Shown in pieces: positions 5,859-63,255 of a DNA stretch of 64,000 bases. Position 1 is the first letter of the stretch, and every line of letters starts with the position of its first letter. A program made the translations under genes and the position numbers. The stretch is from NCBI GenBank assembly GCA_019745555.1, contig JAIESX010000006.1:124001-188000 (forward strand). Reading direction: 5' to 3'. This DNA is from Burkholderiaceae bacterium (GTDB lineage Bacteria > Pseudomonadota > Gammaproteobacteria > Burkholderiales > Burkholderiaceae_C). The notes beneath the pieces are model-generated. The model saw only the letters and a list, made by a program, of their open reading frames with translations. It ran no database searches and had not been told where the DNA came from.

Positions 5859-6953
5859 TCAGCGCAGGTCGTCGGCGATCACCTGCAGGATGCGACGTGC
5901 GGCGTCCGAGGACTCGGGCGCACCGTCGGCATTGAGCACGGCCACGGTGCTGCTCTCGCCCGCGCTGCGCACCGTGATGCGGTACTTCTGCGGCGTCTTG
6001 TCCTTGGGTGTACCGCTGAAGAGACGGCTGAAGAAGCCGGGCTCCTGCTCGCCGGGCGCCCGCGGCTCCACGTAGCGCACGTAGTAGACACCCTCGCTGC
6101 GGTCGCGGTCCTCGACGGTGAAGCCGGTGCGGTCCAGCGTCAATCCCACGCGGCGCCAGGCACGGTCGAAGCCTTCGCTGACCAGCACCACGGGCTGGCC
6201 CTCGCGCTGCTCTACCTTGGCGGTTGGGCGGGGCGCCACGGCGGCCACCTGCTGGGCGGCCTGCGGGCCGCTGGCGCCGAGCTTGAGCATCAGGCGGCGC
6301 AGCATCTCGACCTCCATCTCGGTGTCGCTGGCGCGTGGCTGCCAGGTGGTCTTGGTGGGGCTGTCCGGACGCACCACTTCCTCCAGGCCGCGGTGGCTGA
6401 TGTAGATCTCGGTGCCGCCGGCTGCATTGCGCTCCAGCCGGGTGCGGTACTTGTCCAGCAGGCCGGTGGAGAACAGGTTGTCGAGGATGGCGCCCAGGGT
6501 GCGGCGGATGAAGTCCTGCGGCAGCTTGGCGCGGTTTTCGGCCCAGTCGGTTTCCATGATGCCGAGTTTGGGATCTTCCATCACCAGCGGCAGGCCGGTT
6601 TCCTGCCAGAAGGCCTTGAGTTCGGGCCAGAGCTTCTCGGGCGGCTGATCCACCACGAGCCAGCGCTGCGCCCCCTGGCCTTCGAGGCGCATGCCCGGGA
6701 AGACCGAGGCCACGGTATTGCCCGGCGCCTGGCTGGCGTTCTGGAAACCCGTAGCGCTGACGGTGGCGCCCGGCGAGGTGTAGCGCGTGTCGCGCGGCAA
6801 CTGGGTGAGGTCCGGCGGGATGGACAAGGGGGGTGCCTTGGCAGCGGCCTTGTAGTCCACCTTGTCGCCTTGAAGGGCCGCGCAGGCTGACAACAGCAGG
6901 GTCAGGCCCAGCAGGGCCAGTTTCGATGCAGATTTCAACGGAGGTTTCCTCAA
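5859..6953 (-). CDS. bamC: Outer membrane assembly lipoprotein BamC
   Basis: Accessory lipoprotein of the Bam complex that inserts beta-barrel proteins into the outer membrane. A signal peptide with lipobox LLSAC puts the lipidated Cys at residue 24. An unstructured segment (KVDYKAAAKAPPLSIPPDL) matches the BamC N-terminal stretch that binds BamD. Two helix-grip domains follow, with GFDRAWRRVGLTLDRTGF in the second. Length 364 aa is normal. It lies 7 bp after dapA on the same strand, the same dapA-bamC (nlpB) order as in E. coli. Confidence 0.92.
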   Translation of the reverse strand: MRKPPLKSASKLALLGLTLLLSACAALQGDKVDYKAAAKAPPLSIPPDLTQLPRDTRYTSPGATVSATGFQNASQAPGNTVASVFPGMRLEGQGAQRWLVVDQPPEKLWPELKAFWQETGLPLVMEDPKLGIMETDWAENRAKLPQDFIRRTLGAILDNLFSTGLLDKYRTRLERNAAGGTEIYISHRGLEEVVRPDSPTKTTWQPRASDTEMEVEMLRRLMLKLGASGPQAAQQVAAVAPRPTAKVEQREGQPVVLVSEGFDRAWRRVGLTLDRTGFTVEDRDRSEGVYYVRYVEPRAPGEQEPGFFSRLFSGTPKDKTPQKYRITVRSAGESSTVAVLNADGAPESSDAARRILQVIADDLR

Positions 6954-6960
6954 CAGGGCA

Positions 6961-7857
6961 TCAGAGCAGGCCGCACGCGCGCAGTGCAGCCTCGACTGCC
7001 GGCTGGTTGGCAGGGGTCAGCGGCGTCATGGGCAGGCGCAGCGCACCGCCACAGCGGCCCATGCGCTGCAGGGCCCACTTGACGGGGATGGGGTTGGGCT
7101 CGACGAAGAGCTGTTTGTGCAAGGGCATGAGCCTGAACTGGATCTCCATGGCGCGCTTGGTGTCGCCGGCCATGGCCGCGACGCAGAGCTCGTGCATGGC
7201 GCGCGGTGCGACGTTGGCCGTGACGCTGACGTTGCCGTGGCCGCCGCAGAGCATGAGGGCCACGGCCGTCGGGTCGTCACCCGAATAGATCGCAAAACCC
7301 TTCGGCGCTTCGCGGATCAGCCACTGCGCGCGTTCGATGTTGCCCGTGGCTTCCTTGATGCCGACGATGCCCGGGACCTGCGCCAGACGCAGCACGGTGT
7401 CGTGGGCCATGTCGGCCACGGTGCGGCCGGGCACGTTGTAGAGCACCATGGGCAGGTCGCCCACGGCCTCGGCGATGGCCTTGAAGTGCAGGTACTGGCC
7501 CTCTTGCGTGGGCTTGTTGTAGTAGGGCACGACCTGCAGCTGGCAGTCGGCGCCGACCTTCTTGGCGAAGCGGGCCAGCTCGATGGCTTCGGCCGTGGAG
7601 TTGGCGCCGCAGCCGGCCATGATGGGCACCTTGCCCTTGGCCTGCTCCACGGACACGCGGATGATCTCGCAGTGCTCTTCGACGTTGACGGTGGGCGACT
7701 CGCCCGTGGTGCCGACCACGCCGATGCAGTCCGTGCCCTCGGCGATATGCCAGTCGATCAGTTTGCGCAGGGTGGGGTAGTCGACGCTACCGTCCTCGTG
7801 CAGGGGGGTGACGAGGGCCACGATGCTGCCGGTGATCTGGCGGGTAGAGGAAGTCAT
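6961..7857 (-). CDS. dapA: 4-hydroxy-tetrahydrodipicolinate synthase
   Basis: Condenses pyruvate with aspartate semialdehyde, the first committed step of lysine and diaminopimelate synthesis. The 298-aa TIM barrel shows GTTGESPT near residue 49, LYNVPGRT with the proton-relay Tyr, and GIKEATGN with the Schiff-base Lys. It starts at ATG 7857. A -10 element (TAGAAT) lies about 36 bp upstream. bamC follows after 7 bp and is probably co-transcribed. Confidence 0.97.
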
Positions 7858-51938: not shown

Positions 51939-53876
<1,938 letters not shown>

Positions 53877-53947
53877 GTTCTTACTCCTGAGATGCTTGGA
53901 AATTCGGATGTGCCGTACTTGTGGATAACTTTCCGGGTTTCAAGTCT

Positions 53948-54484
53948 TTATTTGGGGGCGGCCACGGTCACCAGGGCCGGGCGCAGCACGCGGTCGGCAA
54001 TGGTGTAGCCCTTCTGCAGCAGGCTGACGACCGTATTGGCTTCCTGGTCGGCCGGCACCATGCTGATGGCCTGGTGCTGGTGCGGGTCGAACCTGGCGCC
54101 GGGAGCCGGAGCGATGGCGATGACCTTGTTGCGTTCCAGCGCGGCGATGAGCTGGCGCAGCGTGGCTTCGGCACCCTCACGGATCTGTTCGGGGGTGGCG
54201 TCCTTGATCACCAGCCCGGCCTCCAGGCTGTCGCATACGGGCAGCAGGCTCTCGGCGAAGGACTCGACGGCGAACTTTCGGCTCTTGCTGATCTCATCTT
54301 CGGCACGGCGACGCGCGTTCTCGGCCTCGGCCTTGGCGCGCAGGTACTGGTCGGCCAGTTCGGCGCTCTTGGACTTGAGCTCGGCCAGTTCAGCCTGGAG
54401 CTGGGCCAGGGGATCGGAAGCTTGGCCTTCAGGGGCGGTGCCGGGGGCCTGTTCGGGCTGGGGGGTGGCTTGGGGTTCGGACAT
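53948..54484 (-). CDS. grpE: Nucleotide exchange factor GrpE
   Basis: Releases ADP from DnaK. The 178-aa protein has a disordered Pro/Ala N-terminus, a long dimeric coiled coil ([38 protein letters not shown]) and the beta wing with [30 protein letters not shown] 54484 is used: the track start 54541 would include the sigma-32 promoter region. First gene of the heat-shock unit. Confidence 0.96.
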
Positions 54485-54514
54485 TTTTCTGGGGGAATGG
54501 AGAGTCAGCGGCCC

Positions 54515-54542
54515 AGATGGGGGCAGGACCGGCCGCTTCAAG
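54515..54542 (-). promoter_or_regulatory. Sigma-32 heat-shock promoter of grpE-dnaK-dnaJ
   Basis: The minus strand reads CTTGAA, 14 bp, then CCCCATCT, the full E. coli sigma-32 consensus (CTTGAA-N13-15-CCCCAT-T). The start of transcription is expected near 54508, about 24 nt before the grpE ATG. No sigma-70 elements overlap it. Confidence 0.9.
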
Positions 54543-55536: not shown

Positions 55537-55998
55537 TCAAATATAGATTTTTCTGAGCAGCTGAATCAGCGTCTTGCGCTCGGCGGGGCTGAGGCGTGAG
55601 GTGGCGGCGTCTTCCAGTTCGGAGGCCGTGACCTCGGCCTGCTTGACCAGCTTGCGCCCCGCGGGCGTGAGGTGCAGGCCCATGGCGCGGCCGTCGTGCG
55701 GGTGCGGCCGGCGGGTGATCAGTTCGCGCCGCTGCAGCTGGTTGATCATGCCGACGAGGTTGGGCGGCTGGATGTTGAGCGTGCTGCAGAGCTGGCGGGA
55801 GGTGATGCCCGGGTTGTGGGCGATCAGCGAGAGCACCGAGAACTCCACCGGCTTGAGCCCGTAGACCGCCATGTTGCGCAGGAAGGCGTCAACGATCACC
55901 AGCGTCGCGCGTCGCGCGTTGTAGCCGACCAGACCTTCGAGGTAGCTGGTGTCGACCTGTTCGACGGCGGTGTCGGGGGCTGGCTTGCGGGTGGCCAT
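55537..55998 (-). CDS. MarR-family transcriptional regulator
   Basis: A 153-aa dimeric winged-helix protein. It has the MarR pattern FSVLSLIAHNPGITSRQLCSTLNIQPPNLVGMINQLQRRELITRRPHPHDGRAMGLHLTPAGRKL, recognition helix and wing with the conserved DGRA region. MarR proteins often sense CoA-thioesters of aromatic acids. It is the last gene of the catabolic unit, 3 bp after the acyl-CoA dehydrogenase, so likely represses its own operon through the site at 62291-62309; this link is inferred. Confidence 0.9.
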   Translation of the reverse strand: MATRKPAPDTAVEQVDTSYLEGLVGYNARRATLVIVDAFLRNMAVYGLKPVEFSVLSLIAHNPGITSRQLCSTLNIQPPNLVGMINQLQRRELITRRPHPHDGRAMGLHLTPAGRKLVKQAEVTASELEDAATSRLSPAERKTLIQLLRKIYI

Positions 55999-56001
55999 GG
56001 T

Positions 56002-57681
56002 TCAGGCGGCGGTGGTTCCGGTTTCCGGGATTTGTTGTTCGATGATCTGCATGCGCAGGCCGAATTCTGGCAGCACCCAGCTGTGCAGCGCGCGCGCCGG
56101 TGTCTGCCAGTCGGGCAGGGCGCTGCCGATGCGCGCACCGGCCCAGCCCAGCAGGGCCAAGGCCAGGGCCTGCAGAAAATCGTCGGCCACCCAGTAGGGC
56201 AGGTCGGCCTGGCTGGCCGAGGCCTGAGTCAGGCGGCGGGCCAGCGCGCGCAGCTGGTCGAAGCGCTGCTGCACGTCGGCGGGCAACGGCGTTTCGGATG
56301 CGAGCGTGTCGAGCAAGGCGCCCAGAGCCGTGCCGCCGTCGGGCAGCACCTTGCGCACCAGCAGGTCGATGGCCTGGATCTCGTTCGTGCCCTCGTAGAT
56401 CATGGTGATGCGCGCGTCACGCACGATCTGCTCGATTCCCCATTCGCGCACATAGCCGTGGCCGCCGAAGACCTGCAGGCATTCGCTGGCGCCGAGAAAA
56501 CCCTGACGCGTCCAGGCGGTCTTGAGCACGGGGGTGACCAGGCTGCACCAGCGCTGCGCGGCATCGCGGCGCGCTGCGTCCGGGTGGTGCTTGATCATGT
56601 CCAGCTCGATGGCCGTGCGGTAGGCCAGCAGGCGGCCGCCGTCGATCCAGGCGCGCTGGGTGTGCAGGATGCGCTGGATGGCCGGGTGGTCTTGTATGAG
56701 ACTGGTCTCGCTGGCGCCGGGCGCGCGCATCTGGCGCCGCTCGGCGGCGTAGGCGCTGGCCTTCTGCCAGGCGGCTTCGAGCAGGGCGATGCCCTGCAGG
56801 CCCACATGCAGGCGCGCCGCGTTCATCATCACGAACATGGCGTTGAGGCCCTTGCCGGGCTCGCCCACGAGCCAGCCCGTGGCGTCCTCAAAGCGCAGCA
56901 CGCAGGTGGGGCTGCCGTGCAGGCCCATCTTTTCCTCGATGCGCTCGCAGTGCACGCCGTTGCGTGCACCGTCGGGTAGCAGTTTGGGCGCGAGGAACAG
57001 CGACAGCCCCCTGGGGCCGGGCGGGGCATCGGGCAGGCGTGCGAGCACCAGATGCACGATGTTGTCGGTCAGGTCATGCTCACCGCCGGAGATGAAGATC
57101 TTGCCGCCGCTGATGCGATAGCTGCCGTCGGCCTGCGGCAAGGCCTTGGTGCGCACCAGGCCCAGGTCGCTGCCGGCGTGGGCTTCGGTGAGGCACATGG
57201 TGGCCAGCCACTCGCCGGTGGCGATCTTTTCCAGGTAGCGCGCCTTCAGCTCTTCGCTGCCGTGGTGCTTGAGGCACTCGTAGGCGCCGTGCAGCAGACC
57301 GGGGGCCATGGTCCAGCCGTGGTTGGCAGCCGTCAGCATTTCATAGAGCACGGCTTCGAGCACGGCGGGCAGGCCCTGGCCGCCGTCTTCGGGCGCGCAG
57401 GCCAGCGCGGGCCAGCCGGCCTGCCAGAAGGCCTGGTAGGCGGCGCGGAAACCCGGGGGCATGGTCACACGCCCCGCTTCGAAGTGCGCACCAGTCTCGT
57501 CGCCCACGCGCTGCAGCGGCGCAATCTCGCTGGCGACGAACTTGCCGGCTTCGTCCAGCACCTGCTGCATCAGATCGGCATCGGTCTCCGCGTAAGGCGC
57601 CAGGCTCTGCAACTGCTGCGGGGCCTGCAGGGTCTGGAACAGAAGGCGGCCGATGTCGTCGAGGCGGGGCTGGTAATCCAT
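56002..57681 (-). CDS. Acyl-CoA dehydrogenase of the catabolic cluster
   Basis: A 559-aa flavoenzyme that introduces a 2,3-double bond in an acyl-CoA. The N-terminus MDYQPRLDDIGRLLFQTL, MCLTEAHAGSDLGLVRTKAL (FAD contact), KIFISGGEHDLTDNIVHLVLARL, and C-terminal YVREWGIEQIVRDARITMIYEGTNEIQAIDLLVRK with the catalytic-base Glu are present. It belongs to the long acyl-CoA dehydrogenase branch, paralogous to the gene at 45.6 kb. ATG 57681 is used; the track start 58002 runs into the Bug gene. Tandem hairpins separate it from Bug; MarR follows after 3 bp. Confidence 0.92.
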   Translation of the reverse strand: MDYQPRLDDIGRLLFQTLQAPQQLQSLAPYAETDADLMQQVLDEAGKFVASEIAPLQRVGDETGAHFEAGRVTMPPGFRAAYQAFWQAGWPALACAPEDGGQGLPAVLEAVLYEMLTAANHGWTMAPGLLHGAYECLKHHGSEELKARYLEKIATGEWLATMCLTEAHAGSDLGLVRTKALPQADGSYRISGGKIFISGGEHDLTDNIVHLVLARLPDAPPGPRGLSLFLAPKLLPDGARNGVHCERIEEKMGLHGSPTCVLRFEDATGWLVGEPGKGLNAMFVMMNAARLHVGLQGIALLEAAWQKASAYAAERRQMRAPGASETSLIQDHPAIQRILHTQRAWIDGGRLLAYRTAIELDMIKHHPDAARRDAAQRWCSLVTPVLKTAWTRQGFLGASECLQVFGGHGYVREWGIEQIVRDARITMIYEGTNEIQAIDLLVRKVLPDGGTALGALLDTLASETPLPADVQQRFDQLRALARRLTQASASQADLPYWVADDFLQALALALLGWAGARIGSALPDWQTPARALHSWVLPEFGLRMQIIEQQIPETGTTAA

Positions 57682-57708
57682 GGGGGAAGGACACAAGAGG
57701 AGGAAGAA

Positions 57709-57736
57709 GCCCCCTGCGGCGGCGGCCACAGGGGGC
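57709..57736 (-). terminator. Hairpin 2 in the Bug / acyl-CoA dehydrogenase gap
   Basis: GCCCCCTG ... CAGGGGGC with a 12-nt loop, 28 bp upstream of the acyl-CoA dehydrogenase ATG. There is no T-tract. Confidence 0.45.
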
Positions 57737-57745
57737 GGGAGAGCG

Positions 57746-57767
57746 GTCGGGCCGCGGCGGGCCCGAC
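57746..57767 (-). terminator. Hairpin 1 after the Bug gene
   Basis: GTCGGGCC-GCCGCG-GGCCCGAC (read on the minus strand) is an 8-bp stem, 6 bp beyond the Bug stop. Together with hairpin 2 it could attenuate or process the operon mRNA. Confidence 0.45.
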
Positions 57768-57773
57768 GGCCGA

Positions 57774-58760
57774 TCAGGACTCGGCGGTGAAGCCGACCTT
57801 CTTGACCAGCGGACCCCAGCGCTTGAACTCGGACTCGAGCGAGGCGCGCATGTCCTGCATCGTGCTGCCGCCAGAGGCCACCAGGCCCACGTTGGACAGG
57901 CCATCGATCACGCTTTGGTCGCGCAGCGCGGCACGGATGGCGCTGTTGGCGGCGTTGAGCACGCTGGCCGGCGTCTTGGCCGGGGCGAAGAAGCCGAACC
58001 ACTCCTCGGCCACGATTTCCGGATAGCCCAGCTCGGCGAAGGTCGGCGCGTCAGGAGCGGCCACGCGCTTGGGCGCGGAGACGGCCAGGATGCGCAGCTT
58101 GCCGGCGCGGGCGTGGGCCAGCGAATCGCCCGTCGGCGTCACGCAGGCGGCGATCTGGCCACCGACGGTGTCGTTCACGGCCGGCAGCGAGCCACGGAAG
58201 GCGATGTGCTGGAAGGTGATGCCGGCGTTGATGCCGAACAGCGAGCCCACGAAGTGCGGCATGGAACCCGCGCCCGGCGAGCCGAAGCTGGATTTCTCCG
58301 GGTTGGCCTTGGCCCAGGCGACGAAGTCCTGCAGGGTCTTGACGCTCTCGGGCACCAGCGGGCCGATGGCCAGGGCGAAGATCATCTGCGCGCCGATGGA
58401 AATGGGCGCGAAGTCCGCCATCGTGTAGTTCATCTTGCTGTACACGTGCGGGTAGATGGTCAGGGCCGAGGCCTGGGCCAGCGTGAGCACGGAGCCATCG
58501 GCCGGCGAGCCCTTGAGCGTCTCCAGCACGATGCGGCCACCGGCGCCGGGCTTGTTCTCGACCACGGCGTTGTTGCGGGCATAGGGCGTGCCGCCCAGCT
58601 TGTCGGCCACACGGCGGGCCAGGCTGTCGCCCGCGCTGCCGGCGGGGAAGCCGTAGTAGATCCGCGGCTGGGCCACCTGGGCCAGGGCGGCCAGAGGTTG
58701 CAGCGCGGCCAGGGCGGTGGCGCTGGCGGCGGCTTGAACGAAGGTGCGACGTTGCATCAT
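57774..58760 (-). CDS. Bug-family tripartite tricarboxylate transporter substrate-binding protein
   Basis: A 328-aa periplasmic binding protein of the Bug (TctC-like) family. The leader MQRRTFVQAAASATALAALQPLAALAQ has twin-Arg character and a signal peptidase site near AALA-Q. Mature signatures are RIYYGFPAGSAGDSLARRVADKL, NKPGAGGRIVLETLKGSPADG and GYPEIVAEEWFGFFAPAKTP. These proteins bind carboxylates, often without a fixed transport partner; no TctA/TctB membrane genes are in the window. It lies between the SDR and acyl-CoA dehydrogenase, so it likely binds the cluster's acid substrate. Confidence 0.9.
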   Translation of the reverse strand: MMQRRTFVQAAASATALAALQPLAALAQVAQPRIYYGFPAGSAGDSLARRVADKLGGTPYARNNAVVENKPGAGGRIVLETLKGSPADGSVLTLAQASALTIYPHVYSKMNYTMADFAPISIGAQMIFALAIGPLVPESVKTLQDFVAWAKANPEKSSFGSPGAGSMPHFVGSLFGINAGITFQHIAFRGSLPAVNDTVGGQIAACVTPTGDSLAHARAGKLRILAVSAPKRVAAPDAPTFAELGYPEIVAEEWFGFFAPAKTPASVLNAANSAIRAALRDQSVIDGLSNVGLVASGGSTMQDMRASLESEFKRWGPLVKKVGFTAES

Positions 58761-58810
58761 GGTTTGTCTCCTGTGCAGTGGTTGGTGGTGGGGGAACGGG
58801 AATCGGTGCC

Positions 58811-59575
58811 CTAGCGCGGTGCCATGCGCAGCGCGCCATCGAGGCGGATCACCTCGCCATTGAGGTGGCCGTTGCTGACGATGTGGGCGGCGAGCTGGGC
58901 GAATTCCTCCGGATGGCCCAGGCGTTTGGGGAAGGGGATGGAGGCGGCCAGCGAGGCCTGCACTTCCTCGGGCAGCTCCTTCATCAGCGGTGTGGCGAAG
59001 AGGCCGGGTGCCACGGTGCAGACGCGGATGCCGTGCTGGGCCAGATCGCGTGCCATGGGCAGGGTCATGCCGACCAGGCCGCCCTTGGACGCGCTGTAGG
59101 CCTGCTGGCCGACCTGGCCGTCGAAGGCGGCGACCGAGGCGGTGAACATCATCACGCCGCGTTCGCCGTCTTCGAGCGGATCGAGTTTGACGCAGGCTGC
59201 GGCAAACAGGCGGCTGATGTTGTAGCTGCCGATCAGGTTGACATTGATGACGCGCGTGAAGTCTTCCAGCGGCGCGGGCTGGCCGTCCTTGCCGACGATG
59301 CGCTTGGCCGTGCCGATGCCGGCGATGTTCATGAGGATGCGCGCCGGGCCGTGGGCGGCGGCGGCCTTGGCCAGTGCGGCCGTCACGCTGTCGGTGTTGG
59401 TGATGTCGCAGACGCAGGCGACGCCGCCAATCTCGGCCGCAACCTTCTCGGCGAGCGCGGCGTTCACGTCGAGCACGGCGACCCTGGCGCCCAGGCGTGC
59501 CAGTTCACGCGCCGTGGCTTCGCCCAGGCCGGAGGCGCCGCCGGTGACGAGAGCTGCTTGTCCTTGGATCTTCAT
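58811..59575 (-). CDS. 3-hydroxyacyl-CoA dehydrogenase, HSD10-like SDR
   Basis: A 254-aa SDR close to type II 3-hydroxyacyl-CoA dehydrogenase (HSD17B10). Signatures are ALVTGGASGLGEATARELARLGARVAVLDVN (NAD-binding Rossmann with acidic Asp ending beta-2), NIAGIG, MMFTASVAAFDGQVGQQAYSASKGG (catalytic Ser and YxxxK) and PGLFATPLMKELP, then NGEVIRLDGALRM. It should oxidise a 3-hydroxyacyl-CoA to 3-ketoacyl-CoA with NAD. The ligase gene lies 8 bp upstream; the Bug gene 50 bp downstream. Confidence 0.93.
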   Translation of the reverse strand: MKIQGQAALVTGGASGLGEATARELARLGARVAVLDVNAALAEKVAAEIGGVACVCDITNTDSVTAALAKAAAAHGPARILMNIAGIGTAKRIVGKDGQPAPLEDFTRVINVNLIGSYNISRLFAAACVKLDPLEDGERGVMMFTASVAAFDGQVGQQAYSASKGGLVGMTLPMARDLAQHGIRVCTVAPGLFATPLMKELPEEVQASLAASIPFPKRLGHPEEFAQLAAHIVSNGHLNGEVIRLDGALRMAPR

Positions 59576-59583
59576 ACGGTGGT

Positions 59584-61455
59584 TCAGGCTTGGGGTTTGA
59601 GGATGCCGGGGGCGGTGTCGTCGTGCAGGGCCTGCACGAGCGCATCACGGTGCTTGAGCACGGCGCGCTGGTTGATCGAGCCCTTGTCGGTGACCTCGCC
59701 CTTGTCGATCGAGGGCGGCTCGGCGAGCAGCAGGGCGCGCGCGATGCGGTTGGCGCTGCCGGTGGCCTGGCGGGCCAGTTCGTTGATCACGGCCTGGAAG
59801 CGGTCGCGCACGGGGGCGCTGGCCAGCACGTCCGGCCACGGTGCGTCGGCCGGCAGGCCGCTGACGCTGCGGCAGGCGGGCGAGGGGAAGATCAGCGCGC
59901 CGACCTCCTTCATGTTCAGGCCCGTGAGCACCACGTCCTGCACATAGGGCGCGCCGGTGACGATGACCTTGGCGCGCATCGGGCCCACGCTGACGAAGGT
60001 GCCGGTGGAGAGTTTGAAGTCCTCGGCGATACGGCCGTCGAATTTCAGGCCGCGGTGGATGTCCTGCGGGTCGATCCACTGTACGGCGTCGCCGGTGCAC
60101 AGATAACCTTCCTCGTCGAAGGCCTCGCGCGTGGCCTGCTCGGAGCGCCAGTAGCCCGGCGTGACATTGGGGCCCTTGTAGCGGACCTCGGTCTTGCCGT
60201 CCACATCGACGAGCTTAAGTGTCATGCCGGGCACGGGCGTGCCGATGTCGCCGGCTTTCACATTGGGGCTGTTGGTGAACATGGCCGAGGGCGCGGACTC
60301 GGTCATGCCCAGGCCGGTGGCCATGACGATGCGCTCACCCACTTCGGCTTCGGCAGTCTGGTGCAGGCTGTCCCAGACGGGCTGGGCCAGGCCGGCGCCC
60401 GAGTAGAAGAACATGCGCACACGAGACAGCAGCTTCTTGCGCAGCGCTTCGTCGGTCTTCATGGCCTGGGCGATCATCTCGAAGCCCGTGGGCACGTTGA
60501 AGTACAGCGTGGGGGCGATCTCGCGCAAATTGCGCAGGGTCTCGCCGATGAGCGCGGCCGTGGGCTTGCCGTCGTCGATGTAGAGGGTGCCGCCGTGCAT
60601 CAGCGTCAGGCCCACGTTGTGGTTGCCGCCGAAGGTGTGGTTCCAGGGCAGCCAGTCCACGAAGATGGGCGGGGCCTCGGCGATCACCGGCATGGACAGC
60701 GTGATCTGCTGCAGGTTGGCGCACCACATGCGGTGCGTGTTGATCACCGGCTTGGGCATCTTCGTGGAGCCCGAGGTGAAGAGGAACTTGGCGATGGTGT
60801 CGGGTCGCACGGCGTGCATGGCCGCGTCCACCACCTCGGTCGCGGCGGTGTTGCGCAGCGCATCAAAGGCCGTGGTCTGCCGGCCGTCGATGCTGCCCTG
60901 GGCCAGCACGACCTCGATGTCGCTGCTGACCGTGGCCTGGATCGCCTTGCCGTAGCGCGCGCCATCGGCGGCGTAGACCAAGCCTGGGGTGAGCGTGGCC
61001 AGCACATGCTTGAGTTTGTCGTAGTCCTGGCTCACCGTGGCATAGGCCGGCGAGACGGGGCAGTACGGGATGCCGGCGTAGATGCAGCCCAGCGAGAGCA
61101 GGGCATGTTCCAGCGTGTTCTCGCTCAGGATCACCACGGGGCGCTCGGCGCTGAGCTTGCGGTCCAGCAGGGCCTGGCCGATACGGCGTGCGGCTTCGAG
61201 CGCCTGGGCGTAGCTGATGCGCTGCCATTCGCCGGTGCGGCCTTCGCCGAGCTGTTCGCGGCGTGCCATGAAGGTGCGCCCGGGTTCGGCCTCGGCCCAG
61301 TGGACCAGGAAGTCGCTGAGGCGGCGCGCGTAGGCGCCCAGGGGCAGCTCGGCCTGCACATAGCGGGTGCCGGGTGCACCTTCACGCACCGTGACGCGGG
61401 TCACGCCAAAAGGCACGGGGCGGTAGCGCGGGGAGGTCTTCGTCGTCTCGCTCAT
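59584..61455 (-). CDS. fcs: Feruloyl-CoA synthase-type acid-CoA ligase
   Basis: AMP-forming acyl-CoA ligase of the feruloyl-CoA synthase family, 623 aa. Order of motifs: GVTRVTVREGAPGTRYVQAELPLGAYARRLSDFLVHWA, the AMP-loop KFLFTSGSTKMPKPVINTHRMWCANL (A3, with Lys in SGSTKMPK where Gly is common), VDWLPWNHTFGGNHNVGLTLMHGGTLYIDDG, GLGMTESAPSAMFTNSP, YKGPNVTPGYWRSEQATREAFDEEGYLCTGDAVQW, and a C-terminal domain with KLSTGTFVSVGPMRAKVI. It activates an aryl- or phenylpropenoid-type carboxylic acid; ferulate is the family archetype, not proven here. Confidence 0.87.
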   Translation of the reverse strand: MSETTKTSPRYRPVPFGVTRVTVREGAPGTRYVQAELPLGAYARRLSDFLVHWAEAEPGRTFMARREQLGEGRTGEWQRISYAQALEAARRIGQALLDRKLSAERPVVILSENTLEHALLSLGCIYAGIPYCPVSPAYATVSQDYDKLKHVLATLTPGLVYAADGARYGKAIQATVSSDIEVVLAQGSIDGRQTTAFDALRNTAATEVVDAAMHAVRPDTIAKFLFTSGSTKMPKPVINTHRMWCANLQQITLSMPVIAEAPPIFVDWLPWNHTFGGNHNVGLTLMHGGTLYIDDGKPTAALIGETLRNLREIAPTLYFNVPTGFEMIAQAMKTDEALRKKLLSRVRMFFYSGAGLAQPVWDSLHQTAEAEVGERIVMATGLGMTESAPSAMFTNSPNVKAGDIGTPVPGMTLKLVDVDGKTEVRYKGPNVTPGYWRSEQATREAFDEEGYLCTGDAVQWIDPQDIHRGLKFDGRIAEDFKLSTGTFVSVGPMRAKVIVTGAPYVQDVVLTGLNMKEVGALIFPSPACRSVSGLPADAPWPDVLASAPVRDRFQAVINELARQATGSANRIARALLLAEPPSIDKGEVTDKGSINQRAVLKHRDALVQALHDDTAPGILKPQA

Positions 61456-61481
61456 GGATCGTTTCGTATTCGGGGAAGTTG

Positions 61482-62264
61482 TCAGCCCTTGCTGACTTTG
61501 GCGGCCTTGCCATCAAGGAAGGCGCGCACGCGTTGTTTGGCTTCGGGCGCGCTCTGGGCAATGGCGGCCATCATGGCTTCGGTGAGGAAACCCTGGTCGG
61601 CCGGCTGTTCGGCAATGCGGGGCAGGGCGTGGATCAGGGCGTAGTTGGTCAGTGGCGCGTTCTGCGCCACACGCACGGCCAGCTCGTAGGCCTTCTCGAA
61701 GGCCGTGCCCTGGGGCACGAGGTACTGGGCGAAACCTACTTTCTCGCCGTCAGCAGCGTTGTAGACGCGGCCCGTCAGCATCATGTCGGTCATGCGCGCG
61801 GCGCCGATCAGGCGCGGGATGCGCACCGCACCGCCGCCACCCACGAAGATGCCCCGCGAGCCCTCGGGCAGGGCGTAGAAGGTGGATTCGTCGGCCACAC
61901 GGATGTGGCAGGCGCTGGCCAACTCCAGGCCGCCGCCCACGACCGCGCCGTGCAGCGCCGCGATGACCGGCACCGGGCCGTACTGCACCTGCTCCAGAGC
62001 GGCATGCCACATGCGTGAGTGGTGCAGGCCCTGGCCGGCGTCACGTTCTTTCAGTTCGCTCAGGTCCAGGCCGGCGCAGAAGTGTTCACCCTCGCCGTCG
62101 ATGACGGCAGCGCGCACGCCCTCGGGCATGTTCTCGAACAGCTGGCGGATAGCCAGGATCAGGCCGTCGTTGAGCGCGTTGCGCTTGGCAGGCCGGGTGA
62201 GGCGGATCACGGCGATTTCCTGGTGTTCGCCGCGGCGCTCGAAGTGGATGTCAGGGTTCTTCAT
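61482..62264 (-). CDS. Enoyl-CoA hydratase/isomerase (crotonase) family protein
   Basis: A 260-aa crotonase. Oxyanion-hole residues lie in GEGEHFCAGLDLSELKERD and AALHGAVVGGGLELASACHIRVA; the usual Glu in GLDEIRVA-type catalytic position is not clear, and LPEGSRGIFVGGGGAVRIPRLIG replaces the standard PEVGLGL region. Expected to hydrate the enoyl-CoA formed after CoA ligation or to cleave it. ATG 62264 (MKNPDIHFERR) is used; the track start 62315 includes the operator. First gene of the minus-strand set; fcs follows by 26 bp. Confidence 0.88.
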   Translation of the reverse strand: MKNPDIHFERRGEHQEIAVIRLTRPAKRNALNDGLILAIRQLFENMPEGVRAAVIDGEGEHFCAGLDLSELKERDAGQGLHHSRMWHAALEQVQYGPVPVIAALHGAVVGGGLELASACHIRVADESTFYALPEGSRGIFVGGGGAVRIPRLIGAARMTDMMLTGRVYNAADGEKVGFAQYLVPQGTAFEKAYELAVRVAQNAPLTNYALIHALPRIAEQPADQGFLTEAMMAAIAQSAPEAKQRVRAFLDGKAAKVSKG

Positions 62265-62286
62265 CTTGCGTTTCTTTCGGGAATCG

Positions 62287-62315
62287 ATTATGGTTATGAA
62301 ATATAACCAATTCAA
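62287..62315 (-). promoter_or_regulatory. Catabolic operon promoter with operator in the spacer
   Basis: On the minus strand, -35 TTGAAT (62315-62310), 17-bp spacer, -10 CATAAT (62292-62287). The inverted repeat TGGTTAT-GAAAT-ATAACCA (62291-62309; 7-bp arms) occupies the spacer almost exactly. A plus-strand -10-like TATAAC (62302-62307) for the amidohydrolase lies in the same element, so one bound regulator could silence both directions. Confidence 0.7.
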
Positions 62316-62350
62316 GCAAGCGCCGCCTGCTTTTCATCAGTGTTTACCCT

Positions 62351-62372
62351 AGGCCACCGGATCCGGTGGCCT
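62351..62372. repeat. 22-bp perfect palindrome in the amidohydrolase leader
   Basis: AGGCCACCGGATCCGGTGGCCT is fully palindromic over 22 bp. It lies 16 bp upstream of ATG 62389 and right before the GGAG Shine-Dalgarno. It can form a strong RNA hairpin or a second operator. Confidence 0.6.
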
Positions 62373-62388
62373 CAGCCCGGAGCCGGTC

Positions 62389-63255
62389 ATGGACCACAAG
62401 AACCTCATCGCCATCGATGTCCACACGCACGCCGAAGTCAGCTGCTGGAACCCCTTCGACAACTATGGCGAGGAGTACGACCGCGCCGCAGACAAGTATT
62501 TCCGCTCCAACCGCCGCCCGACGATTGCCGAGACGGTGGCCTATTACCGTGAGCGCAAGATCGGCCTGATCATGTTCACGGTGGACAGCGAGGCCCAGCT
62601 GGGCCGTCGCCGCATCCCGAACGAGGAGATTGCCGAGGCCGCCAAGGCCAACAGCGACATGATGATGGCCTTTGCCAGCATCGACCCGCACAAGGGCAAG
62701 ATGGGCGCGCGCGAGGCGCGCCGCCTGATCGAGGAGCACGGCGTCAAGGGCTTCAAGTTCCACCCCACGGTGCAGGGCTATCACCCCTACGACAAGATGG
62801 CGTGGCCCATCTACGAGGTGATCGCCGAGTACAAGATGCCGGCCATCTTCCACACCGGCCACAGCGGCATCGGCAGCGGCATGCGCTGCGGCGGGGGGCT
62901 GCGCCTGGAGTACAGCAACCCCATCCATCTGGATGACGTGGCGATCGACTTCCCCGACATGCAGATTGTGATGGCGCACCCGAGCTGGCCCTGGCAGGAC
63001 GAGGCCTTGAGCGTGGCCATGCACAAGCCCAATGTCTGGATCGACCTGTCGGGCTGGAGCCCCAAGTACTTTCCCAAGCAGCTCGTGCAGTACGCCAATA
63101 CCCTGCTCAAGGACCGCATGCTGTTCGGCAGCGACTATCCGCTGATCACGCCCGAGCGTTGGATGAAGGATTTCGAGGAAGCCGGCTTCAAGCCCGAGGT
63201 CATGCCCGGCATCCTCAAGGACAACGCGGTGCGACTGCTGGGCTTGGCGCCCTGA
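62389..63255 (+). CDS. Amidohydrolase-2 family metal-dependent hydrolase
   Basis: A 288-aa TIM-barrel protein of the amidohydrolase 2 (ACMSD-like) family. Metal ligands are visible as HTHAEVS near residue 11, HPTVQGYHPYD, IFHTGHSGIG, VMAHPSWPWQDEA and FGSDYPLITPERW (catalytic Asp). Relatives catalyse decarboxylation or C-C/C-O hydrolysis, e.g. 4-oxalomesaconate hydratase, gamma-resorcylate decarboxylase. It is divergent from the crotonase-fcs set across the shared operator. Reaction unknown; C-C cleavage in place of a thiolase is a speculation. Confidence 0.87.
   Translation: MDHKNLIAIDVHTHAEVSCWNPFDNYGEEYDRAADKYFRSNRRPTIAETVAYYRERKIGLIMFTVDSEAQLGRRRIPNEEIAEAAKANSDMMMAFASIDPHKGKMGAREARRLIEEHGVKGFKFHPTVQGYHPYDKMAWPIYEVIAEYKMPAIFHTGHSGIGSGMRCGGGLRLEYSNPIHLDDVAIDFPDMQIVMAHPSWPWQDEALSVAMHKPNVWIDLSGWSPKYFPKQLVQYANTLLKDRMLFGSDYPLITPERWMKDFEEAGFKPEVMPGILKDNAVRLLGLAP

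Follow-up and report, generated by a model that had tools for sequence, protein, structure and literature searches.

A predicted thiolase-free hydroxycinnamate degradation cluster in a Burkholderiaceae bacterium

Background

Several bacterial systems for the catabolism of plant-derived aromatic acids share components with the locus reported here, a seven-gene cluster at positions 55537-63255 of a 64,000-nucleotide stretch of DNA ("the window": positions 124,001 to 188,000 of contig JAIESX010000006.1, assembly GCA_019745555.1) from a Burkholderiaceae bacterium. The cou genes of Rhodococcus jostii RHA1 encode a ligase, a hydratase, a dehydrogenase and, in place of a thiolase, the amidohydrolase CouO, which performs the last step (CouL, CouM, CouN and CouO, respectively); the genes are controlled by the MarR repressor CouR, and a divergent promoter carries an inverted repeat whose arms are 5 bp apart (PMC4737184). 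The phd system of Corynebacterium glutamicum deacetylates phenylpropanoids by CoA-dependent beta-oxidation and is repressed by a MarR protein until hydroxycinnamoyl-CoA relieves the repression. In strain RHA1, mutation of couO reportedly leads to accumulation of the beta-keto acid, and a CouO variant at Asp257 is said to fail to complement the mutant. In Agrobacterium fabrum, the SpG8-1b region encodes a feruloyl-CoA synthase, a hydratase, a dehydrogenase and a beta-keto-CoA cleaving enzyme; the genes atu1415, atu1416, atu1417 and atu1421 are under the MarR regulator HcaR, and Atu1421 was termed a beta-keto-thiolase (PMC7797058). A similar set is present on a plasmid of Rhizobium sp. Q54, in the order acyl-CoA dehydrogenase, short-chain dehydrogenase/reductase (SDR), feruloyl-CoA synthase / hydratase, MarR and a protein annotated as 4-hydroxyphenyl-beta-ketoacyl-CoA hydrolase. 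We take Atu1421 itself to be a protein of the amidohydrolase superfamily.

Two further systems share single components with this scheme. The acetovanillone (hpe) cluster of Rhodococcus GD02 includes HpeF, which is 95% identical to CouO and is predicted to cleave hydroxyphenyl-beta-ketopropionyl-CoA with release of acetyl-CoA (PMC9618137); the beta-keto acid arises there by carboxylation of an acetophenone. The ech operon of Pseudomonas fluorescens, which uses a hydratase/lyase and a vanillin dehydrogenase, contains the pcd gene for an acyl-CoA dehydrogenase, PFLU3296, characterized as a phloretyl-CoA dehydrogenase required for saturated substrates (phloretate) only (PMC12642758).

In this work, profile and structure matches were combined with comparative genomics of related loci to interpret the cluster in the window. 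As a result, we report that the unit very likely encodes CoA-dependent beta-oxidative deacetylation of hydroxycinnamates, in which an amidohydrolase replaces thiolase, and that the dihydro forms of these acids are probably substrates as well. The cluster is real, conserved and functionally coherent, and its biochemistry is already described in Rhodococcus, Agrobacterium and Corynebacterium. The earlier note on this DNA, made from its letters, had pointed, probably rightly, to possible cleavage by the amidohydrolase, but it did not recognise the exchange of thiolase for amidohydrolase as part of a described pathway.

Results and discussion

Gene composition and enzymes of the cluster

Direct analysis is the source of what follows on gene identity, conserved linkage, residues of the active sites, conservation of the operator and the downstream genes. 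The genome comprises 2.99 Mb in 57 contigs and is 88.6% complete, and whole-genome negatives are limited accordingly. All seven open reading frames of the earlier layout are intact, each with a strong Pfam match, and their coordinates are right apart from two gene starts, which we corrected. Six genes lie on the minus strand, and the amidohydrolase gene (62389-63255, plus strand) is divergent from them. The minus-strand genes are likely to form a single operon, because adjacent genes are separated by only 8-92 bp, or by 3 bp in the case of the acyl-CoA dehydrogenase and MarR genes.

The first gene of this unit encodes a crotonase-family protein (61482-62264; ECH_1, E 3e-42; best PDB match 3hin, E 1.5e-98), proposed to have the role of CouM, Atu1417 and CouA. 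Its frame can be extended upstream to a TTG at 62315; ATG 62264 is probably the true start, since the longer frame would cross the putative operator described below. Enoyl-CoA hydratases have two glutamates at a characteristic spacing, and both can be read from the sequence here (GGGLE...ALPE, 20-residue spacing). Judged by its profile scores, the protein is a hydratase and not a hydratase/lyase, because it passes the PRK08150 cut-off (425 bits against 232) and falls far below that of the hydratase/lyase family PRK09120 (80.5 bits against 276). These scores bear directly on a non-beta-oxidative route of the Acinetobacter hca or Pseudomonas ech type, in which a hydratase/lyase would yield vanillin or 4-hydroxybenzaldehyde for an aldehyde dehydrogenase. 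Operons of the ech type also have a ligase, a crotonase, an acyl-CoA dehydrogenase and a MarR regulator (PMC12642758), but the unit in the window has an SDR and lacks an aldehyde dehydrogenase, and no gene of the 88.6% complete genome passes the PRK09120 cut-off (best score 125.5 bits); the vanillin-type route was rejected on these scores and we regard it as very improbable.

The other enzymes of the unit are consistent with beta-oxidation. The ligase (59584-61455, minus strand; AMP-binding, E 3e-52; PRK12582, 712 bits) is of the feruloyl-CoA synthase type and shares 48% identity with the protein annotated as feruloyl-CoA synthase in Rhizobium sp. Q54. The SDR (58811-59575, minus strand; adh_short, E 6e-43) would be the 3-hydroxyacyl-CoA dehydrogenase, in the role of CouN and Atu1415; its catalytic motif is readable as TASVAAF...YSASK, and its syntenic counterpart in Rhizobium sp. 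Q54 is 57% identical. The acyl-CoA dehydrogenase (56002-57681, minus strand; Acyl-CoA_dh N, M and 1 domains), whose start is ATG 57681, retains the IYEGT motif with the catalytic glutamate and also has a syntenic homologue in Rhizobium sp. Q54. By analogy with PFLU3296, its role is probably restricted to saturated (dihydro) side chains, with dihydro-hydroxycinnamoyl-CoA as the proposed substrate; this is the simplest reading, and it agrees with the earlier suggestion that the enzyme serves a saturated side chain. The patchy occurrence of this gene among relatives, described below, fits such a limited role. The Bug (TctC) periplasmic solute-binding protein (57774-58760, minus strand; TctC, E 1.5e-50) is a possible component of hydroxycinnamate uptake.

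It had also been suggested that the substrate might be a cycloalkyl acid, and breakdown of cycloalkyl or alkyl carboxylic acids instead of hydroxycinnamates was considered. The dehydrogenase weakly resembles cyclohexane-1-carbonyl-CoA dehydrogenase (113 bits against a cut-off of 650), a similarity too weak to retain the candidate, and we found no support for it. The feruloyl-CoA-synthase-type ligase, the CouR-like regulator, the hydroxyphenyl-linked amidohydrolase family and the feruloyl-esterase neighbours in relatives all argue against this explanation, which is extremely improbable.

Compared with the systems above, the window has the same enzyme classes as the cou genes and the same kind of repressor, but the gene order and the transport gene differ, and the acyl-CoA dehydrogenase and Bug genes are part of the unit. 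The A. fabrum-type set on the Rhizobium plasmid contains homologues of every enzyme gene of the window and of its MarR gene (37-60% identity); the A. fabrum region itself has a folate-dependent vanillate O-demethylase and a second regulator, both of which the window lacks. The phd system, with its actinobacterial sequences and layout, was compared at the level of the pathway. The ech operon shares the acyl-CoA dehydrogenase but has a hydratase/lyase and vanillin dehydrogenase where the window has the SDR and amidohydrolase. In Rhizobium sp. Q54, the plasmid-borne hydroxycinnamate cluster directly adjoins a CRISPR-cas locus of type I-C and a TRAP transporter.

Amidohydrolase and cleavage of the C-C bond

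Cleavage of the C-C bond was assigned to the amidohydrolase because the unit contains neither an aldehyde dehydrogenase nor a thiolase. The protein (Amidohydro_2, E 5e-50) is proposed to be an aryl-beta-ketopropionyl-CoA hydrolase in the role of CouO, HpeF and Atu1421. Its metal ligands (HxH, His, His, Asp: H12, H14, H125, H155 and D249) are kept in close homologues as well as in the hpe- and Rhizobium-type homologues. It is 95-97% identical to proteins of Hylemonella and Curvibacter, 75% to a homologue in P. putida YC-AE1, 60% to the annotated hydrolase of the Rhizobium sp. Q54 plasmid and 50% to a homologue in Rhodococcus JS3073. The very high identity to the Hylemonella and Curvibacter proteins makes it likely that the source belongs to the Comamonadaceae, close to those two genera. 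The YC-AE1 and JS3073 genes terminate hpe-type clusters (biotin carboxylase, HAD, CoA ligase), whose predicted substrate is also an aryl-beta-ketopropionyl-CoA; the hpe cluster of strain GD02 likewise shares with the window the amidohydrolase family and the predicted kind of cleavage, although its beta-keto acid does not come from beta-oxidation. A plasmid of Rhodococcus opacus (L122) carries a 56% identical homologue followed by an AMP-binding ligase, an SDR and a MaoC dehydratase; this set, too, has no thiolase, and its hydratase is of a different fold.

Linkage of the amidohydrolase to the other genes was assessed in 69 public loci that include 8 kb or more of flanking sequence; this sample is biased, because all loci were picked for close amidohydrolase similarity (90-97%). 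The ligase was found in 66 of them, the hydratase in 65, the SDR in 58 and the MarR gene in 48, and the Bug gene (at least 45% identity) in 38; in 63 loci the hydratase gene is divergent from the amidohydrolase gene and lies within 600 bp of it. Nearly all of the Comamonadaceae loci examined thus retain amidohydrolase, hydratase and ligase together. Among cultured relatives, Curvibacter delicatus NBRC 14919 has all seven genes of the cluster, and the stretch covered in Hylemonella gracilis lacks the acyl-CoA dehydrogenase gene. In an order-level genome sample, the ligase was present in 13 of the 15 genomes that have the amidohydrolase (at least 59% identity) and in 23 of 286 others (Fisher p ~1e-11, uncorrected for relatedness). 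The neighbourhood comparison proposed in the earlier note thus gave co-conservation of the amidohydrolase with the cluster, and therefore the lack of co-conservation named there as a ground against the idea is not what was found. Combined with the annotated homologues and with the roles assigned to CouO, Atu1421 and HpeF in the literature, this lends good support to amidohydrolase cleavage.

A further feature of the related loci is a gene of the tannase/feruloyl-esterase family, which in about 20 loci lies on the operon strand, either inside the operon or close to it (for example, L041:3543-5258 and L042:3515-5242, with about 18 more; PF07519 E 1.6e-121 for one). The window is without one. Such neighbours fit the release of hydroxycinnamates from plant esters.

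MarR regulator and its candidate operator

The MarR-family regulator (55537-55998, minus strand; MarR_2, E 9e-16) is of the CouR/HcaR kind, having as its best PDB match CouR of R. palustris (6c28, E 2e-18) and matching also the RHA1 CouR structures 3fm5 and 5cyv. In the divergent promoter, a 6-5-6 inverted repeat, GGTTATGAAATATAACC, at 62292-62308 is the sole site in the genome with at most one mismatch and is the putative MarR operator. Its 5-bp spacing is that of the published CouR box of RHA1, but its arms (GGTTAT-N5-ATAACC) differ from those of the RHA1 repeat (cATTGA-N5-TCAATg). Among 78 loci from relatives, which are not independent, the exact arms occur in 29, against 0.0 expected from shuffles, and any perfect 6-5-6 repeat occurs in 46, against 3.3 in shuffles. 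From sequence we infer that MarR would bind this palindrome and be released by hydroxycinnamoyl-CoA.

Thiolases and alternative readings

As the earlier note stated, the cluster lacks a thiolase: none was found inside the minus-strand unit or elsewhere on its contig. The genome has five full-length thiolase genes and three short or partial thiolase-like matches, all on other contigs. A thiolase encoded elsewhere might therefore complete the spiral, the amidohydrolase having another role, and the presence of those five genes, as well as of an operon thiolase in some relatives, favours this explanation. It is nevertheless unlikely, given that no thiolase lies on this contig, that the operator is unique in the genome, that the amidohydrolase is tightly linked to the hydratase and ligase, and that its family is shared with hpe-type clusters producing the same kind of substrate. 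A thiolase within the same regulon was rejected because the contig carries no thiolase gene and the genome no further copy of the operator; for the related proposal that a 3-keto acid is passed to a distant thiolase, no support was found.

Full-length thiolase genes do stand beside the ligase gene, within the operon, in six relatives (L016, L061 from Rhodoferax ferrireducens OTU1 at 5951-7171, L065, L067, L075 and L110), and the catalytic Cys, His and Cys are kept in all six; in two truncated loci, L054 and L066, the thiolase beside the ligase is partial. Several observations weigh against hydroxycinnamate deacetylation by the amidohydrolase as proposed here. Six to eight relatives have an intact operon thiolase and also retain the amidohydrolase, which need therefore not be the sole C-C cleaving enzyme in them. 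The acyl-CoA dehydrogenase is present in only 30 of the 69 loci, the ligase scores slightly below the PRK12582 cut-off of 777, and the VanA-type oxygenase of the genome was recognised by domain match alone. Moreover, in the sequence comparison CouO (WP_011597356.1) and Atu1421 were represented by stand-ins, the hpe-type JS3073 and Rhizobium Q54 proteins.

On a speculative reading, which is unlikely at present, one Comamonadaceae operon family would serve both hydroxycinnamates and their saturated forms via hydrolytic C-C cleavage, and in several members thiolase and amidohydrolase would divide substrates or conditions. No published description of the operon pairing of a thiolase with the amidohydrolase was found.

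Reconstruction of the pathway

For the preferred reading, amidohydrolase-dependent deacetylation of hydroxycinnamates, we infer the substrates, the individual reactions and the inducer as follows. The ligase would convert p-coumarate, ferulate and caffeate to their CoA thioesters, and the acyl-CoA dehydrogenase would desaturate the dihydro substrates. The hydratase would then add water to give the beta-hydroxy thioester, which the SDR would oxidize to aryl-beta-ketopropionyl-CoA. The metal-dependent amidohydrolase is predicted to hydrolyse the C-C bond of this intermediate to 4-hydroxybenzoate or vanillate and acetyl-CoA, so that neither a thiolase nor a thioesterase would be needed. MarR would repress both divergent promoters via the 62292-62308 palindrome until hydroxycinnamoyl-CoA binds. 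The aromatic products would be passed on to PobA and protocatechuate 4,5-dioxygenase, perhaps with a VanA-type demethylase taking part. PobA is present in the genome (689 bits against a cut-off of 538.7), and two loci of the protocatechuate 4,5-dioxygenase (LigAB) type lie some 15-27 kb from the cluster on the same contig.

This reconstruction extends a described route without thiolase for phenolic acids from lignin to a gene cluster widespread in Comamonadaceae, with unchanged biochemistry, and adds a probable operator and a probable enzyme for substrates with a saturated side chain, which is useful for annotation and for lignin conversion. The amidohydrolase is usually annotated merely as "amidohydrolase family protein", and the present assignment could aid its annotation.

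Neighbouring genes

In the neighbouring stretches of the contig, only profile-backed genes were used, since antisense frames distort longest-frame calls in a genome as GC-rich as this one. Beyond the window (C55:188001-204000, L140), a minus-strand MetE-like gene and two binding proteins of the Peripla_BP_6 family, together with an ABC transporter of the branched-chain type, are followed by further Bug proteins and then by a protocatechuate 4,5-dioxygenase locus. On the other side, genes for DnaK and GrpE adjoin the cluster on the minus strand (51939-54541 of the window).

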